IMG/VR virus record: IMGVR_UViG_3300008267_000148
Span: 1-64,000 of that record
Length of the DNA: 64,000 nucleotides
Direction: 5' to 3' (one strand)
DNA from: a virus
The position numbers and the translations under genes are program-made. Below are positions 4,250 through 47,401 of this stretch, one piece after another (within the stretch, counting starts at the first letter, position 1; the number at the start of each line of letters is the position of its first letter). The notes beneath the pieces were generated by a model. That model was not told where the DNA came from, did not search any database, and saw only the letters and a list, made by a program, of their open reading frames with translations.

Positions 4250-4633
4250 ATGGAGTTAAAAATTAACGAGTCTAAGTTCAAAAAACTATTATTCAATTAC
4301 TTGGATAACGAAACTGAATTTAAAAGAGCTCAAGAACACAGAACGGGTTATGGTTCTAATGTTAGAGAGTTCTTTATTGAAATGAATTTTGGTGAGGAGG
4401 ACTACCCTGAATATGATTGGTTATTTACTTATTATAAAACATCCAATGATTATGAAGATATCGTAGGTGTTGTTAGTCCATATAGTTCAAATGAATTTCC
4501 TTTAATTGAATACAATTCATACTTCTTTGACCCCATCTTAAAAATGTTCGGTAGTAAACTATCTCACGAATACGTTCTTGAATGGTTAAATTATTATTTT
4601 GGTGTGGGCGCAATAACAATGCACGGTGGTTAA
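4250..4633 (+). CDS. Tagged virion-type protein, 127 aa
   Basis: Begins MELKINESKFKKLLFNYL, a short helix with an I-N-E site at residues 5-7, the tag shared by many proteins here. The remainder is acidic and aromatic with no known domain. It is divergent from the HExxH gene and convergent, with no gap, with the secreted protein ending at 4634. If the tag is a capsid-targeting peptide, this is an internal head protein, which is inference. Confidence 0.7.
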   Translation: MELKINESKFKKLLFNYLDNETEFKRAQEHRTGYGSNVREFFIEMNFGEEDYPEYDWLFTYYKTSNDYEDIVGVVSPYSSNEFPLIEYNSYFFDPILKMFGSKLSHEYVLEWLNYYFGVGAITMHGG

Positions 4634-9772: not shown

Positions 9773-9808
9773 TAAAAAACCCGAGTTAATCTCGGGTTAA
9801 GCCTTTTT
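9773..9808. terminator. Bidirectional terminator between convergent genes
   Basis: Perfect 8-bp stem AACCCGAG / CTCGGGTT with a 5-nt loop. It is flanked by A6 on the left, which gives a T-run on minus, and by CTTTTTAT on the right. The tagged gene's last codons overlap its edge. Confidence 0.85.
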
Positions 9809-10349
9809 ATTTATATAAAGAACTAAAGATTGTAACATTAACACCAGTCTTATTTGTAATTTGTTCTAAGTAATCTCTTACACAGTCTTCAATCTCACTT
9901 TCAATTTCATATCCTATCTCCTCATCATCGATGGCTTTCTGTAGTTGAAAAGTCTCACCTGTTACAATATTAACCTCGGCATTAGGGTCTTCAGCATCAA
10001 CCAACACATCAACGTAAATGTTCGCATCTTCAATATCGTTAATTGATAGTTCAAACTTAAAATCATAACCACCACAAACCATCCCCCCATCACCAATCTT
10101 GTGTGGGTTCTTAAGTATTAGTTCTTCAGTCATCTTCATTGCGTTTTCATAACCCAAAAACTCTCTAAGATGAGCATAAACATTATTAATATTGGTACCA
10201 TCAAGATTACCTCGTTTAAATCCAAACAAATTAAGGAAGTTTTCATCAACACCAGGTCCGAATCGTTCCCAATATTTTTGAAACATTTTTCTATGTTGTA
10301 GATTTTCTTGAATGGTTTTAACCTGTGATTCTGTTAGTACTAATTTCAT
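9807..10349 (-). CDS. Tagged virion-type protein, 180 aa
   Basis: Starts MKLVLTESQVKTIQENLQ. It has (L/I)-x-E sites at residues 5-7 (LTE) and 13-15 (IQE), the two-site tag found in this group. The rest is soluble, with an acidic C-terminal half and no known domain. A TATTTATA element is 3 nt before the ATG, so the tag must begin exactly here. It ends in the bidirectional terminator. Packaging into the head is inference from the tag. Confidence 0.75.
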   Translation of the reverse strand: MKLVLTESQVKTIQENLQHRKMFQKYWERFGPGVDENFLNLFGFKRGNLDGTNINNVYAHLREFLGYENAMKMTEELILKNPHKIGDGGMVCGGYDFKFELSINDIEDANIYVDVLVDAEDPNAEVNIVTGETFQLQKAIDDEEIGYEIESEIEDCVRDYLEQITNKTGVNVTIFSSLYK

Positions 10350-20271: not shown

Positions 20272-20709
20272 TTACTTAATCTGCCGCATAATTTCCCGAT
20301 TAATATCTTTTTCTTTTAAACTTTCCCTCTTATCGTAAAGTTTTTTACCCTTACCTAAGACAATTTCCATCTTTAATAATCCCTTCTCAGTGCTAAAAAT
20401 CTTATAGGGTACCAGTGTCAAACCTTTTACCAGTTCTTTTTGTAGTTTGACCAACTCTCGTTTCTTCATTAAGAGTTTACGCTCTCGTAGTGGTTCGTGA
20501 GTATAGGATTGTTTATACTCAGGAATGTTCATTCCCTTCACAAAAAGTTCACCATCGTTAAAGTAACAATACGCATCCACCAACGAGACTTTACTATCAC
20601 GGATTGACTTCACCTCAGAACCCATCAGTTGAATCCCCACGGTAAACGTATCCACGAAGAAATACTCGTGACTCACTTTACGGTTTACTATGTTGACTGA
20701 TTTTTTCAC
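20272..20709 (-). CDS. smpB: SsrA-binding protein SmpB, 145 aa
   Basis: The OB-fold SmpB signature is present: VSHEYFFVDTFTVGIQL, GSEVKSIR, HEPLRERKLLMKKREL and GKGKKLYDKRESLKEKD. SmpB binds tmRNA and brings it to stalled ribosomes for trans-translation. GTG at 20709 (KKSVNIVNRK) is chosen because it follows TATCTTTG-TGGT; an ATG at 20724 lies inside the promoter element. The C-terminal tail is short (INREIMRQIK). No tmRNA gene was found in the window. It stands alone under its own promoter. Confidence 0.93.
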   Translation of the reverse strand: MKKSVNIVNRKVSHEYFFVDTFTVGIQLMGSEVKSIRDSKVSLVDAYCYFNDGELFVKGMNIPEYKQSYTHEPLRERKLLMKKRELVKLQKELVKGLTLVPYKIFSTEKGLLKMEIVLGKGKKLYDKRESLKEKDINREIMRQIK

Positions 20710-20713
20710 ACCA

Positions 20714-20745
20714 CAAAGATACATAAAAAAAAACAAAACCCCAAA
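20714..20745 (-). promoter_or_regulatory. Host-like promoter TTTG-N20-TATCTTTG of smpB
   Basis: TTTG (20745-20742) and TATCTTTG (20721-20714) are separated by 20 nt. The start codon GTG follows after TGGT, which predicts a leaderless smpB transcript. The -33 element lies in the 3' arm of the preceding terminator. Confidence 0.8.
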
Positions 20746-21296: not shown

Positions 21297-21638
21297 ATGA
21301 TAATAAGTATTAACAAGAATAAATTCAAGGTCAAAGTTATGATTTCACCTCGTGATACCCAAAAAGGTATGATGGGTCGTAAGTTTGACTCAACCTTCAA
21401 CGGAATGTTATTCTTAATGGATGGTGATGAACAATGTTTCTGGATGAAAAATTGTATAATACCTTTAGACATTATCATGATTGACGGTAACACTATTACA
21501 GAAATCCACCATAGTTGCCCACCATGTACTACAGATGAATGTAATAATTATTGTGGTGAAGGTGATGTAGTATTAGAACTACCTTCAGGTACCTGTAAAA
21601 AATTAGGTTTTCAAATCGGTGATGAGGTTACATTTTAA
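21297..21638 (+). CDS. DUF192 family protein, 113 aa
   Basis: The DUF192 core is visible: SPRDTQKGMMGRKF, GMLFLMDGDEQCFWMKNCIIPLDIIM in two parts, and C-terminal ELPSGTCKKLGFQIGD. In cellular forms the protein often has a signal peptide, but here it does not, so it is cytosolic or virion-borne. An extra Cys-rich insert (CPPCTTDECNNYC) may bind metal. It ends 4 nt inside the convergent DHH gene. Function of the family is not established. Confidence 0.87.
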   Translation: MIISINKNKFKVKVMISPRDTQKGMMGRKFDSTFNGMLFLMDGDEQCFWMKNCIIPLDIIMIDGNTITEIHHSCPPCTTDECNNYCGEGDVVLELPSGTCKKLGFQIGDEVTF

Positions 21639-23044
21639 TCCTCACCATTAATCTTCTCTTGTAATTTTTTAACCAATTCACTTTGAATCATCTTTGTGAA
21701 CTTCACATAAGGTGTGTCATCAGACTCAGGGTCATATTTGTATTTACCTGCCGGTGGTCTTTTACTTCTACCTAAATAACTTAAACCAGAAATGTTTGTA
21801 ATACATTTGTGACCACCACTATTCGACTGAATTAAATCCCAAGCGTTTACCGTAACGTTATCCAAGTCTTCCATCTCTTCAGGTGTAAGGTCACTAAATG
21901 GTTTTTCCATCATCCCACCAATCTGAGTTAAGATATCACGACCGTTCTCAATTGTCTTAAAGTTTTTACCATATAAAGCAACGAAATCTTTAAATGTAAA
22001 ACCAACTGACTCTGGTCCGAAATCTTTACCTGACTCTGAAATCCATTTGATAGTTGATAAAGGAATTTGTCTTTCTTTTAATTGGTCTTCCCATTTCGCA
22101 AGAACCTCTTGAGCAATCTCACCTAAGTTAACACCTTTTAATTCACGTTCTTTTTTAAATGGATTACAAGACGCTTGTACTAAACCTAAAGGCCAAGCAA
22201 TTACTAAGAAGTCAGCTTCAGGGTTATTCTTGAATGGTGTGTATCGGTCATAAGAACCTGGTTTCATCATAGAACCACCACCATATTGAACAATAACATT
22301 ACCTTGTACATTTACGTTAGGGTGGTTTTTCATTTGTTCAATATAACCTTCTCTGTTCTTTTGTAGTTGTTCGATTGGGGCGTAACCCTTCTCGTTCATA
22401 ATACGTTTGATATTCATCACCAAATTAAGTAATGATGGTGAAGTTTCCATAACCAACTCTTCTAAGAAACCTGGTTTGTTTTTAAACGCTAATAATAATT
22501 TGTTAGCAACCAAACCTAAGGCTTGTTTATTCTTAGCCGCTGGTGAGTTTTTGTCTAACTTAAATAAATAATTAATTACTTGGTCAACGCTAACTTCATT
22601 TGCCGCGTAGTTAGCCGAGTCAACCATAGATATCAATTGAATGTCTTCAGGTGAAAACAATTCTTTTGGTGATACCACTTGTGAAATAGTTTCAACGTTT
22701 GAACGTGAGTGTCTGAATGATGTTGATTTAGTATCTTCAGCACCGGCTTGTCTATCGTGGTGGTCAGTATGAATAACGAACATTGGTTTACCGTGAGCAA
22801 AGTCGACTAATACAGGCATCGTATCTCCCTGAGCGTCATTCTTTTTAACCGCAAACTCCTTATCTCCGTATTGAATGATGTGAGCACCAACGACTTTAAT
22901 TCCGTTGTTCTCCAAATACTTCTTCATTGCAATTGCCGTTGTTACACCATCTAAATCTTGGTGAAAATATATTTCAGCCTTAGGATATCTTTCAGCAATT
23001 TTCTTAATATCTCTTAAACCACTTTCTTTTAATAACTTTTTCAT
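21635..23044 (-). CDS. Tagged DHH/DHHA1 phosphoesterase, 469 aa
   Basis: Motif I is D30-L-D32-G33 (FHQDLDGV), motif II D81 (VLVDFAHG) and the namesake D94-H95-H96 (HTDHHD). Near the C-terminus SNSGGHKCI matches the DHHA1 glycine-rich motif. The family includes RecJ, NrnA and c-di-AMP phosphodiesterases, so it should cut short oligonucleotides, ssDNA or cyclic dinucleotides with Mn. The N-terminus MKKLLKESGLRDIKKIAERY carries L-K-E and I-A-E sites of the tag, so the enzyme may travel in the virion. It is co-transcribed with the gene at 24174. Confidence 0.85.
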   Translation of the reverse strand: MKKLLKESGLRDIKKIAERYPKAEIYFHQDLDGVTTAIAMKKYLENNGIKVVGAHIIQYGDKEFAVKKNDAQGDTMPVLVDFAHGKPMFVIHTDHHDRQAGAEDTKSTSFRHSRSNVETISQVVSPKELFSPEDIQLISMVDSANYAANEVSVDQVINYLFKLDKNSPAAKNKQALGLVANKLLLAFKNKPGFLEELVMETSPSLLNLVMNIKRIMNEKGYAPIEQLQKNREGYIEQMKNHPNVNVQGNVIVQYGGGSMMKPGSYDRYTPFKNNPEADFLVIAWPLGLVQASCNPFKKERELKGVNLGEIAQEVLAKWEDQLKERQIPLSTIKWISESGKDFGPESVGFTFKDFVALYGKNFKTIENGRDILTQIGGMMEKPFSDLTPEEMEDLDNVTVNAWDLIQSNSGGHKCITNISGLSYLGRSKRPPAGKYKYDPESDDTPYVKFTKMIQSELVKKLQEKINGED

Positions 23045-23049
23045 AATAA

Positions 23050-24174
23050 TTATCTACCTAATAATGAACCAATCAATGAAGAAAACGCATCTCCACCAAC
23101 TTTATTTGTCGCTGCTTGTCCAACCATATTACCCATACCTGATTCAGATGGTGGTGGTGGTACTTCACCCATTTCGTTACTCCATGTTTGTTGAGCTTCA
23201 GGTGTCTGAGAATATTGGTCCCATTTTTCTTCAGCATTTGGTACTTGGGACAATAATTCATCAGGACCAATAAAGTTTCCGATACCTAACCAATCTAAGA
23301 AACCTAAATAAGTTTTAGTACGTCTCATTAATGAACGAGTTGCGGGATTACCACCAAATATTCTTGGTACACCAGCGGATATTTTTTGACCTAAAGTCGC
23401 GTCGGACTTCATATATTTCAACCAAGAGTTTTTCACGTCTTTATGACCTCTAAACATTTTACCTTGTTCTTTCTCAAGTTGTTTCATCAACTGAGTTTTT
23501 TCAGCTGAACTTAAACTTTTTTCAACATTTACTAATTTACCGTCTTTAACAACGTTTGTTGGCATTTTAAGTTCACGACTAGCCTTTGTGAAAATACCAA
23601 CAAATTCTTCAACCGCTTTAACCATAGGCATTCCAATACCGGGTACTTTACCAACTGACGCTTTTAAAACATCCATTAATTTAGAACCCCAACTTGGAGC
23701 TTTCTCAACCATTTTGGCAACAGGTCCACCAGCTACTTTAGCGGTTTCTGCTATTTTAACCGCATCACCCGCAACAACCGCACCTCTAAAAGCTTTAGTT
23801 GCGGCACCACCGGCTTTAAGTACCCCAACAACAGGTTTAGCAATTGCATCACCAAGTAATGGGACTACCGATATCCAAGATAAAACCGCGAATAATTTAT
23901 CACCTTGTCTCCAATAACTAACCCCGTTAACTAAATCAACCACACCTGTTGGGTCGAAGATACCTACGATATCACCAACTGTGTTGTACCACTTACTTTC
24001 ATTTAATGTTTTGGCTTTTTCAGGGTAAATGGTTTTTAACATTTCAACAACAATAATCTTGTCATTCTTACTTAAACCATTCCACTTCTCCTCTATGATT
24101 TTACTATATTCTTCGTTATAAATCTCTAGAATTCTATCCTTAACTTGAGATTCCGTTAATTTTTTGCTGGTCAT
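23050..24174 (-). CDS. Tagged virion-type protein with hydrophobic centre, 374 aa
   Basis: Starts MTSKKLTESQVKDRILEIYN (L-T-E at 6-8, I-L-E at 15-17), and a further L-N-E-S sits at 57-60. Residues 66-125 contain FDPTGVVDLVNGVSYWRQGD and a hydrophobic LGDAIAKPVVG region. This recalls pre-toxin or colicin-like membrane segments of phage structural proteins. The C-terminal part is Lys-rich and ends in a Pro-rich segment with PPPPSESG. It may be an internal protein that meets the membrane during ejection, which is inference. A TATTTATA element is 14 nt upstream. Confidence 0.72.
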   Translation of the reverse strand: MTSKKLTESQVKDRILEIYNEEYSKIIEEKWNGLSKNDKIIVVEMLKTIYPEKAKTLNESKWYNTVGDIVGIFDPTGVVDLVNGVSYWRQGDKLFAVLSWISVVPLLGDAIAKPVVGVLKAGGAATKAFRGAVVAGDAVKIAETAKVAGGPVAKMVEKAPSWGSKLMDVLKASVGKVPGIGMPMVKAVEEFVGIFTKASRELKMPTNVVKDGKLVNVEKSLSSAEKTQLMKQLEKEQGKMFRGHKDVKNSWLKYMKSDATLGQKISAGVPRIFGGNPATRSLMRRTKTYLGFLDWLGIGNFIGPDELLSQVPNAEEKWDQYSQTPEAQQTWSNEMGEVPPPPSESGMGNMVGQAATNKVGGDAFSSLIGSLLGR

Positions 24175-25625: not shown

Positions 25626-26858
25626 TTAATCATTGTAAATTGAGCCGTTTTTATCATTTTCGAATTCTATCTCAGTAGATTCAATGTTAGCCTTAGATTC
25701 CATCATTTCTTCCGTTAATTCGTAATCATCCTCATCCCTATATTCTTTTAAAAGTTCTTCAGGTTTTAACACCCCATTAAATTTTGATGCAATGTCATCA
25801 AACTTCTTAATATCAACATTAGTGTACATATTACGATGAGCAACTGATAACTCATCCGCCATGTCTAAACTTCTAATAATTTCTCTAATTATTTCATATG
25901 GGTTAGCATTTGACGCAGGTCTTCTATCTTCTAAATAACCTTTCCATTCTTTAGCTGTGTCTCTTGGAACTCTGATTGACGCACCTCTATCTGCAACACC
26001 CCAACTAAACTTATCAATCGATTGTGTCTCGTGTTTACCTGTTAATCTCATATCGTTATCTGAACCATAAACTTCAATGTGAGTATCTTTTCTAGTGTCA
26101 AACGCTTGGAAAATTGCCTTGAAGTATTCTTCGCCTCCTTTGTCTCTCATTTTTCCGGTTGAAAAGTTAGTATGTAAACCTGAACCATTCCAATCCATAT
26201 TTTTACCCAATGGTTTTGGGTGGTATTCAATGTGGTACCCGTATTTTTCAGATATTTTTTCCATAAAATATCTCGACATCCATAGGTCGTCACCAGCCTT
26301 TTTAGAACCTTTAGAGAATACTTGGTATTCCCATTGTCCTAAAGCAACCTCAGCATTAACACCGGTAATTGTTATTCCATGAGACAAACACATATCTAAA
26401 TGTTCTTCAACTAACTCCCTACCAACAACACTTGAGCCAACACCACAATAGAACCTACCTTGAGGTTCTGAATTTAATGTGTGACCTAAAATATTACCTC
26501 GTTTACCTTCTTTAATAAAATATTCTTGTTCAAATCCAAACCAAATATCTGAATCACTATTAATGTCCGCCCTACGGTTTGATGGGTGTGGTGTTCCGTC
26601 AGGATACATCACTTCACAAAAAACATAAATCTTATCTAACTTGTCATTCATATAAAGTCTGACAGGTTCTAAAATACAATCAGAATCGTGTCCTTCCGCT
26701 TGTTGTGTTGATGAACCATCAAAATTCCACTTTGGTATATTTGCAAATACTGGTTTACCATTATCGAACAAAAGACTCTTGTCAACAACTTTAATTTTAC
26801 TCCTTAAATTTGGTTCTGGCGTATAACCATCTAACCATACATACTCTAATTTTATCAT
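25626..26858 (-). CDS. glnA: Glutamine synthetase, type II (GSII), 410 aa
   Basis: ATP-dependent ligation of ammonia to glutamate. The beta-grasp segment KWNFDGSSTQQAEGHDSD (residues 43-60), active-site FEQEY (109-113), the MDWNGSGLHTNFST segment and a RGASIRVPR segment identify the eukaryote-like GSII class. That class also exists in some Bacteroidetes and other bacteria. About 60 acidic residues follow the catalytic part and are not typical. It overlaps the 86-aa gene upstream by 4 nt (ATGA) and is followed by DUF3310. It may boost nitrogen assimilation during infection, which is inference. Confidence 0.95.
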   Translation of the reverse strand: MIKLEYVWLDGYTPEPNLRSKIKVVDKSLLFDNGKPVFANIPKWNFDGSSTQQAEGHDSDCILEPVRLYMNDKLDKIYVFCEVMYPDGTPHPSNRRADINSDSDIWFGFEQEYFIKEGKRGNILGHTLNSEPQGRFYCGVGSSVVGRELVEEHLDMCLSHGITITGVNAEVALGQWEYQVFSKGSKKAGDDLWMSRYFMEKISEKYGYHIEYHPKPLGKNMDWNGSGLHTNFSTGKMRDKGGEEYFKAIFQAFDTRKDTHIEVYGSDNDMRLTGKHETQSIDKFSWGVADRGASIRVPRDTAKEWKGYLEDRRPASNANPYEIIREIIRSLDMADELSVAHRNMYTNVDIKKFDDIASKFNGVLKPEELLKEYRDEDDYELTEEMMESKANIESTEIEFENDKNGSIYND

Positions 26859-28252: not shown

Positions 28253-29449
28253 TTATTCGACTCTCATCACATAATAAAGTACTCCGTCCTCACCTCTAAC
28301 AGAATCATAACTTCCGTCGTAACTATTCATAATACCCCAACCATCGTCGGCAACTAAACCTTTGGCTAATTCTTTCTCATCAACAAAATTTTTTAATTCC
28401 ATACCATACTCTCTAATATATTGGATTGGGTCTCTTTTAACTTGATACACCAGTTCTTCAACTTTGTTATCAACCATTTCTTGAGTAACTTCGTCAGGTG
28501 TAATGTCATCCTTCTCTGACTCTAAATCATCTATTAGATTTTGAAAGTCGTCATATAACTCATCGTAATCTTCGGCTTCAGTATCTAACTCTCGTTGTTG
28601 ACGTTCATAATCCTCAATTTGACTCTCAATTTCGGCTATTTTTCTTTCTTGTTCAGATGTTAATTCGTAATCACCCTCAGTAAAGTAAATTTCAGGATTA
28701 TTCCAAACATCGTCTTCATAAAAGTCTTGGAAGTAGTCCGCAACCTCATCTTTATCAACGTATTCATCAATATAACCTTCTCTAAAACCATCTAAACCAA
28801 TATCCTGAATATAGTCTTCTGAGTATCGTAATGCAGCGTCATCCATTTCCCTTTCATCACCAACAGCGTAAGCCCCGTCTTGACCTAAAACTTCAAAAGT
28901 TTGTAGACCATAATGGGCGTAAGGCTGGGGTACAACATCGTACACATCAGCTTCCTCATCATCAATCGTACCTTCTTCATTCAAATATTTAAATAATGCG
29001 TTTGCCTTTAAACCTACATCATCTGAGTTATCAATACTCCATTCTTCGTTTGCTCGTCTAACATCAGCCTCAGCTCTTTTCTTTCTCAATATTTCAGCGT
29101 CAATCTTTCTTTGTAAAGGAGTATTACTTTTACTAACATAACCTCTAACTTGTGTTGTACCTAAATCACTTATGTTTGTACTATTAATATTTAAACTACC
29201 GTTAATGTTTGCAACATTACCAAGTGAATCTGTTGGTGTGTTTGATAAATTAACATCACCATCAATCCATAAAGGCTTACCTTCAAATCTAGGTAAACGA
29301 GTAATACCTTTTCCGTGATAACCAGAAAGTTTCATCAGTTCCATATATTCATTCGCACCAATCTTAAAATAATCACCTTCGGTTTGTTCAACCAATCGTT
29401 TGATTAGATTACGGAACTCGCTCTCATTAAGTCTCACTTTACGTTTCAT
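28253..29449 (-). CDS. Tagged acidic virion-type protein with LRR-like ladder, 398 aa
   Basis: Begins MKRKVRLNESEFRNLIKRLV and continues E-Q-T. L-N-E is at 7-9 and L-V-E-Q at 19-22, a model example of the tag. Residues about 40-110 form a leucine-rich or ladder-like segment (WIDGDVNLSNTPTDSLGNV, then INGSLNINSTNISDLG). The C-terminal two thirds are extremely acidic with a coiled-coil stretch. A TATTTATA element is 3 nt before the ATG. Likely a packaged head protein, by inference. Confidence 0.75.
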   Translation of the reverse strand: MKRKVRLNESEFRNLIKRLVEQTEGDYFKIGANEYMELMKLSGYHGKGITRLPRFEGKPLWIDGDVNLSNTPTDSLGNVANINGSLNINSTNISDLGTTQVRGYVSKSNTPLQRKIDAEILRKKRAEADVRRANEEWSIDNSDDVGLKANALFKYLNEEGTIDDEEADVYDVVPQPYAHYGLQTFEVLGQDGAYAVGDEREMDDAALRYSEDYIQDIGLDGFREGYIDEYVDKDEVADYFQDFYEDDVWNNPEIYFTEGDYELTSEQERKIAEIESQIEDYERQQRELDTEAEDYDELYDDFQNLIDDLESEKDDITPDEVTQEMVDNKVEELVYQVKRDPIQYIREYGMELKNFVDEKELAKGLVADDGWGIMNSYDGSYDSVRGEDGVLYYVMRVE

Positions 29450-46600: not shown

Positions 46601-47401
46601 TTACATGTAATCGAATAGTATCGAACTATCGTTCCGTAATTTTCGAAGAGCCTTTTCTTTAATCTGTCTGACTCTTTCTTTAGTTAGGTTAAAATCACCA
46701 CCAATATCTTCCAATGTTCGAGGAGTTCCTGATAACCCAAAATAGTCTTCAATGATTACTCGTTCACGTTCATCCAAGTATTCTAAAAGATTCATCAACT
46801 TAGACTTCAACATATCTTTCGTGTTGAAAATCTCGTCGGGCATTTCAGCATCAGGGTTTTGGATGATGTCAATTAATGTATCACCATCTTCATTGATGTG
46901 CATATCCAAATCAATCATCGATGGTAGGTTTTGGAACTTATCATCTAACACTCCGCCAGTGTTCTCAATTTCTTTCTTCGCTCTGTGTAAGTCTTGTACT
47001 ACGTTAACGGGTAGTCGAATAGTCCTAGCATTGTCGTTGAGTGACTGAAGAATGGATTGTTTAACCCACCACACCGCGTATGAGATAAAACGTAGGTCTT
47101 TTGACCAATCAAAGTTTTTAATTGCTTTCATCAATCCAAGATTACCTTCAGCAATTAAGTCAGGAAAATCTAACCCTTGATTTTGATATTGTTTTGCAAC
47201 TGTGATAACGAAACGTAAGTTACCCTCAAGGATTTCTTTATGTACCGCATCAATTTGTCTTTGTGTTAGGGTCCCCGACTTCATAAGTTCAGCTAACTCC
47301 TTTTCACGTTCAGGAGTCATAACTTTAATTTTACGAATGTCTTTCAAGTAAACTTGAATCTCGTCTTGATTAATCGGAATACCAGCGTTTTTTTCTTTCA
47401 T
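46601..47401 (-). CDS. RNA polymerase sigma-70 family factor, 266 aa
   Basis: Region 1.2 (DEIQVYLKDIRKI), region 2 (GNLRFVITVAKQYQNQGLDF, then DLIAEGNLGLMKA), 2.3-2.4 (RFISYAVWWVKQSILQSL, ARTIRLP; residues 104-131), a short region 3 and region 4.2 (TLEDIGGDFNLTKERVRQIK, residues 229-248) are all present. This is an RpoD-like, short group 1/2 type. It would bind host core RNA polymerase. It is a likely reader of the TATTTATN element, which is inference. A TATCTTTG lies 48 nt upstream. Confidence 0.95.
   Translation of the reverse strand: MKEKNAGIPINQDEIQVYLKDIRKIKVMTPEREKELAELMKSGTLTQRQIDAVHKEILEGNLRFVITVAKQYQNQGLDFPDLIAEGNLGLMKAIKNFDWSKDLRFISYAVWWVKQSILQSLNDNARTIRLPVNVVQDLHRAKKEIENTGGVLDDKFQNLPSMIDLDMHINEDGDTLIDIIQNPDAEMPDEIFNTKDMLKSKLMNLLEYLDERERVIIEDYFGLSGTPRTLEDIGGDFNLTKERVRQIKEKALRKLRNDSSILFDYM

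Follow-up and report, generated by a model that had tools for sequence, protein, structure and literature searches.

The stretch of DNA analysed here (the window) comprises 64,000 nucleotides and is considered a fragment, since it belongs to an IMG/VR virus record of 64.8 kb. Its minus strand carries a gene for a DHH-DHHA1 phosphoesterase, with a partner gene upstream, and several other genes in the window start with a similar tag (Table 1). The translation of the DHH reading frame begins with MKKLLKESGLRDIKKIAERYPKAEIYFHQDLDG... and no second methionine was found before residue 40, indicating that the N-terminus of the protein is translated.

Table 1. Features of the DHH locus and other tagged genes in the window
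Feature	Position	Strand	Remarks
DHH-DHHA1 phosphoesterase gene	21635..23044	-	ATG start, single intact ORF, 469 aa
Putative capsid-targeting propeptide MKKLLKE, residues 1-7, predicted cut after E7	23024..23044	-	E7 invariant in 40 relatives
LKES, residues 5-8, prohead-protease-type site (L/I)xE/S	23021..23032	-	Conservation; T4 gp21 specificity (PMC9026906)
IAER, residues 16-19, DHH helix 1	22988..22999	-	Not conserved; helix 13-19 in model
DHH domain, motifs HQDLDG 28-33, D81, DHH 94-96, D142	22595..22981	-	About residues 22-150; alignment and model
DHHA1 domain with internal insert	21638..22315	-	About residues 244-469; alignment, model and fold search
Partner gene, 374 aa, LTES tag at residues 6-9	23050..24174	-	Upstream of DHH gene; alignment
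Second predicted cleavage motif of partner, LNE59/SKWYNT (cut after E59)	23998..24006	-	39 homologues
Another tagged gene (MKLVLTESQVKTIQ...)	9807..10349	-	No Pfam match
Another tagged gene (MKRKVRLNESEFRNLIKRLVEQ...)	28253..29449	-	No Pfam match
Another tagged gene (MELKINESKFKKLL...)	4250..4633	+	Tag pattern

The ligands of the active site were recognised as H28, D30 and D32 in motif I, D81 in motif II, D94-H95-H96 in motif III and D142 in motif IV, and the DHHA1 motif as SGGH at residues 409-412 (GGH codons at 21809-21817). The DHH metal ligands and SGGH were invariant across 40 aligned relatives with identities down to 23%. The Pfam DHH family was found in 40/40 family members (best 3.7e-6), with the window protein itself under the curated cut-off (23.1 vs 28.1 bits), and PHROGs gave only a weak match to a DHH phosphoesterase (phrog_4771). 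Searches of PDB sequences with the protein or its profile returned no significant DHH entry and a fold search was therefore needed. With the AlphaFold2 model (pLDDT 83.2, pTM 0.84) the top structural matches were the pAp phosphatase of Methanothermococcus (8a8k) and PggH of Vibrio (7d62), with Z 17.6 each and alignments spanning residues 22-464, followed by T. maritima PDE, Nrn and RecJ enzymes (Z 12.5-14); NrN was also matched (Z 11.7, 11% identity). The exact reading frame, the motif residues shared by the 40 relatives and the confident fold bore out the preliminary description, according to which the DHH and DHHA1 motifs are intact, and the gene product is very probably a phosphoesterase. 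Judging from the model, the fold leans towards small substrates, with a modest Z lead over the RecJ and NrnA enzymes; because identity to the solved structures was only 11-16%, substrate specificity cannot be deduced from them.

The protein stayed far below the cut-off of the RecJ single-strand exonuclease model (TIGR00644 17 bits vs 396.9). The known anti-CBASS, anti-Pycsar and ring-nuclease families Acb1, Apyc1 and AcrIII-1 have the folds of a 2H phosphoesterase, a metallo-beta-lactamase and a viral ring nuclease; the fold found here is DHH-DHHA1 and the catalytic motifs are of DHH type. At two loci (L044 2541-4616 and L129 5001-7073) the DHH protein is fused to a C-terminal region of about 225 aa which, by eye, looks like a SET domain.

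A tag composed of LKES and IAER had been proposed for the N-terminus of this protein. The first element stood, since [LI]-x-E-S is kept by nearly all close relatives, whose starts follow the consensus MK(K/N/R)(L/I)(L/I)xESG(L/I)R(D/N)I. The second was discarded: the relatives have LAKR, LSKR, LANR, LAAR and others at this position, which lies within the first DHH helix (residues 13-19), and being both variable and helical it is ascribed to the enzyme and not to the tag. In unforced alignments of the 40 relatives E7 was the sole invariant residue upstream of I25. A residue table in which E and G had been forced by the search pattern was left out of this estimate, so that the conservation of the cleavage Glu rests on the unforced alignments and on the boundary count made for the neighbouring gene. 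Residues 1-5 of the leader had pLDDT values below 50 in the AlphaFold2 model, and E7 sits within a low-confidence, probably disordered segment. G9, R11 and I13, just past the predicted cut, are also conserved among the phage DHH proteins, and the leader block could therefore be partly enzyme-specific.

When distant phages were compared, the enzyme was found to be collinear and the leader to have been replaced. With a slash marking the predicted cut, the leaders were MISKYNQFINE/E, MLRKYGQFINE/E and MIKEFHNFALNE/E in distant phages, MKKYTEFVNE/E in clade B and MNILDKINEIEAIEHRLDE/S in a third clade, and further DHH proteins had MKKFQSFVNE/E, MIKKYQNFLNE/E, MNIKDYRLFLGLESDEPINE/E and MNLLETLSLYEEEIILNE/S. 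Although the leader changes, the cleavage Glu persists across clades. The internal proteins II and III of T4 start with MKTYQEFIAE/A, as read from T4 itself; in IPIII, loading into the head depends on residues 4 and 7 and processing on residues 8 and 10, and gp21, the T4 protease, cleaves after L/I-X-E (PMC9026906). The aromatic core of the T4 leader (Tyr4, Phe7) is absent from MKKLLKE of the window and present in MKKYTEFVNE of clade B. According to the roles of these residues in IPIII, the clade-B leaders match the capsid-targeting sequence (CTS) of T4 and the window leader matches only its cleavage half, and since Y4 and F7 are missing, targeting in the window's clade rests on the functional equivalence of the LxES leader.

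The partner and DHH genes abut or overlap in most of the relatives that bear the partner, with gaps mostly of -3 to +8 bases, and the two genes are probably translationally coupled. The second boundary of the partner corresponds to (L/I/V)-x-E/(S/A/D/N/G)-(K/R)WYNT; all 39 distinct homologues have the Glu and all 39 have one of L/I/V, over a background of 0.5% per position. In L051 and L056 about 31-34 residues between the two sites of the partner are deleted and the boundary is retained. The partner is not obligatory, because in some relatives it is missing or reduced to a remnant of 61 codons. Its body after the tag is helical, hydrophobic and rich in Gly/Ala, and recalls, by eye only, the pre-toxin domains of polymorphic toxins. 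A Pfam search with the partner gave no significant match, and no fold is claimed for it since its helical model was of low confidence (pLDDT 63, pTM 0.47). Genes for NUDIX, DUF192 and glutamine synthetase proteins represent metabolic functions in the vicinity of the DHH gene. The window also encodes an SmpB, the tmRNA partner protein (20272-20736, Pfam 2e-48), relatives of which were found near the DHH gene at 41/107 loci; the phage glutamine synthetase lies at 25626-26858 (Pfam Gln-synt_C 4e-18) and a sigma-70 factor with regions 1.2, 2 and 4 at 46601-47401.

The DHH protein belongs to an abundant family of huge phages, with relatives encoded on at least 599 IMG/VR stretches. The DHH protein of contig G012 is 74% identical to that of the window. 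The 'phages' collection contained 4 relatives, all of them in uncultured huge phages of 635-735 kb. When 84,980 prokaryote genomes were scanned twice, one relative emerged, in a Myxococcales MAG, and a search of 289 genomes of the class of this MAG yielded one more; further cellular relatives could have been missed, because these scans relied on short peptide patterns. Both bacterial homologues (L271 4827-6488 and L273 1492-3069) thus derive from MAGs of the myxobacterial class, and the former was 32% identical to the window protein over residues 17-464. Homology between the bacterial and phage proteins begins at residue 17, and the phage leader block is absent from both cellular relatives, which start with MSTTLKSHSLRARTRALLIAILLAFVSSSALAAPR... 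and MRTAHSLLARRDLASRLALFALLAASAFAPVASAK..., judged by eye to be Sec-type signal peptides. The myxobacterial proteins therefore share the family of the window enzyme and differ from it in their starts, and one and the same DHH enzyme seems to bear a capsid-type label in phages and an export label in bacteria. An exported DHH phosphoesterase, as the apparent signal peptides of L271 and L273 suggest, would be unusual.

The abundance of the tag on other genes was evaluated with the pattern M..[LI]xES, taking the first ATG as the gene start. The pattern was present at 5/76 gene starts vs 1/341 internal Met positions in the window (p=9e-4), 13/193 vs 2/943 in G006 (p=5e-9), 9/173 vs 4/796 in G003 (p=6e-5) and 16/275 vs 6/1041 in G012 (p=2e-7), counts in which tandem copies of one tagged family are not independent of each other. 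Shuffled N-termini gave about 0.5-1.2 matches per set for the window, G006 and G003. LxES enrichment was not significant in the clade-C contig G017 (1/139, p=0.57), where the leader takes another form. A strict T4-like pattern was found at 8/370 gene starts vs 0/1343 internal positions and at 7/330 vs 0/1441 in two huge phages, and with a relaxed pattern about 12% of the genes of LR745206 and LR756501 (44/370 and 41/330) had T4-CTS-like leaders, such as MKYLKKFNES, MIKKYNQFVND and MKNFTRFINE (loci L174-L203). A 40-kb stretch of T4 with 114 ORFs served as a positive control: the strict CTS pattern picked out ipII and ipIII and no other ORF, and the LxES pattern picked out gp2, whose annotation is DNA end protector.

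Similar leaders are present on 5-12% of the other genes, unrelated ones among them. None of ten longer tagged proteins of the huge phages gave a Pfam match above the cut-off, and this comparison therefore provided no link between the tag and virion functions. In G012 the leader MNLQESIRRILREE is common to four nearby genes (L255 3916-8128), whose proteins diverge after it, and in G006 a series of tandem short paralogues on the same strand, of about 101-127 aa each, start with MKY(I/L)ITESQ (L164 1050-4076).

Genes for the corresponding head machinery were identified in relatives. G012 encodes a capsid protein of the Gp23 type a few kb away from a prohead protease of the S77 family (2.3e-64 and 2.1e-23), as does the clade-C contig G017 (4e-76 and 2e-31), and both genes are also present in clade B and in the 635-735-kb phages, with a weaker protease match. 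Neither was found on the contig of the window or on several contigs of clade A, all of which are fragments. CTS-like leaders were also seen in LR756501 on genes upstream of the protease, for example MSTLSHYKNFVNEAG.

The first residues of the enzyme look like a shortened T4 head-loading label, which suggests that it is probably injected with the DNA. The earlier proposal that the protein travels in the virion was strengthened by the exchange of leaders between clades, the retained (L/I)xE, the capsid and protease genes of the relatives and the signal peptides of the cellular homologues; on these sequence grounds the DHH protein is likely to be packaged into the head, and packaging followed by ejection is well supported, if unproven. 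The most economical reading, which we favour with some reserve, is a DHH phosphodiesterase that is loaded into the head, cleaved there and ejected. The metal-dependent enzyme would enter the prohead by means of its short N-terminal propeptide, the S77 (T4 gp21-type) prohead protease of the phage would cleave after E7, and the mature enzyme, starting at S8, would be ejected together with the DNA; in the new host it might then hydrolyse dinucleotides, short oligonucleotides or nucleotide signals before phage gene expression. Anti-defence is one possible purpose of this activity. Counting against packaging, tags on 5-12% of the genes are many for head cargo.

That same abundance, which exceeds the known cargo of T4, would be in line with a leader that sorts proteins elsewhere, to a compartment resembling the phage nucleus, to the membrane or to a host factor. 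We regard this as very unlikely, since the clade-B leader matches the experimentally proven T4 CTS, the protease site is retained, and the same contigs carry genes for the S77 protease and the Gp23 capsid protein. An ordinary cytoplasmic nanoRNase, pAp phosphatase or RecJ-like exonuclease, active in nucleotide recycling or DNA repair and having a variable N-terminus with nothing packaged, would agree with the fold common to NrnA, PggH, pAp phosphatase and RecJ, with the conserved G9-R11-I13 block and with the nearby metabolic genes. Nevertheless, the leaders switch by clade to those of unrelated neighbours and one of them fits the T4 CTS pattern; moreover, the G9-R11-I13 block is missing from the cellular relatives and E7 lies in a probably disordered segment, and for these reasons a cytoplasmic enzyme is considered unlikely. 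The packaged enzyme could also serve head assembly or DNA ejection, as a structural protein or in end trimming, and not act on the host at all; T4 gp2, a DNA-end protein, also has the LxES pattern, and DarA of P1 functions both in head morphogenesis and in anti-restriction (PMC12810830). However, a structural function needs neither a fully conserved active site nor a small-substrate fold, which makes such a role quite improbable.

A special case of the favoured reading, the head-packaged and ejected phosphodiesterase, is counter-defence, the role raised in the preliminary description. The enzyme would destroy the signals of CBASS, type III CRISPR (cOA, SAM-AMP) or similar systems before the phage genes are expressed; linear signal products are also possible targets. 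The evidence for packaging applies here too. Substrates of DHH enzymes include pApA and SAM-AMP, and NrN, which was matched in our fold search and is specific for SAM-AMP, shows that a member of this group may be dedicated to one defence signal (PMC10600005). Iyer et al. 2021 cite a DHH-DHHA1 nuclease reported to degrade a type III signal and propose a counter-defence role for the DHH enzymes of jumbo phages (PMC7824862). On the other hand, the defence-system models of PADLOC gave no match to the DHH protein, no known anti-defence gene was found among its neighbours, the nearest folds hydrolyse pAp and pGpG rather than cyclic signals, and the cellular relatives seem to be exported proteins and not cytoplasmic ones. 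The structure does not decide the matter, since fold similarity cannot fix the substrate, and nothing in the analysis singles out counter-defence among the possible roles; it is a tentative and rather unlikely reading. The fuller version, in which a head-preloaded enzyme with a T4-like label destroys nucleotide immune signals at the start of infection, being one among dozens of labelled cargoes per genome, appears doubtful.

Should the leader indeed be a propeptide for head targeting, the proteins injected by whole clades could be read from sequence; they would amount to about 5-12% of the genes, and the DHH enzyme would be a conserved, testable member of this set. A packaged nucleotide-cutting enzyme would act before any anti-defence protein expressed by the phage, and if the cargo did destroy immune signals, the labels would read out the injected arsenal of uncultured huge phages. 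The Sec-type signal of the bacterial proteins and the capsid leader of the phage proteins would, in turn, represent a clean swap of delivery signals on one enzyme.

As regards known enzymes, PggH (7d62) and pAp phosphatase (8a8k) share the full DHH-DHHA1 architecture with the window protein at 13-15% identity, and the latter has in addition an extra DHHA1 segment and the N-terminal leader. NrN, the SAM-AMP phosphodiesterase of the type III-B CRISPR system of B. fragilis, has the same DHH fold, but is less similar than those two, is host-encoded and has a chain of about 250 residues in the structure. The DHH phosphodiesterases of jumbo phages described by Iyer et al. 2021 belong to the same superfamily, the likeness being one of description, and the idea that such enzymes act on defence nucleotide signals was thus already published; no packaging signal is mentioned in the part of that article on which we draw, in contrast to the leader reported here (PMC7824862). 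In the open-licence literature we found no precedent for a DHH enzyme with such leaders or for leader swapping between clades, nor any account of capsid targeting in huge phages or of leaders resembling that of T4 on 5-12% of their genes.

Head-packaged cargo processed by a protease is known from the internal proteins and Alt of T4, Dar of P1 and the ejection proteins of phiKZ and SPN3US, and IPI* of T4 is an injected inhibitor of restriction. The proposed cargo resembles IPII and IPIII of T4 in having a leader at residue 1 which ends in (L/I)xE, the cut site of the S77 protease, and MKKYTEFVNE of clade B is close to MKTYQEFIAE. It differs from them in its size, about 53 kDa, in the shorter leader of the window protein, which lacks Y4/F7, and in that packaging is here a prediction. 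DarA and Hdf of P1 and the ejection proteins of SPN3US and phiKZ are packaged in the head and ejected with the DNA, several of them after cleavage by the prohead protease (PMC12810830, PMC5694885), as we propose for the DHH enzyme, which they resemble in this description. The propeptides of SPN3US are mostly longer than 100 aa and end at A-x-E, and the phiKZ site is S/A-x-E, whereas the leader of the DHH protein is short and ends in (L/I)xE.
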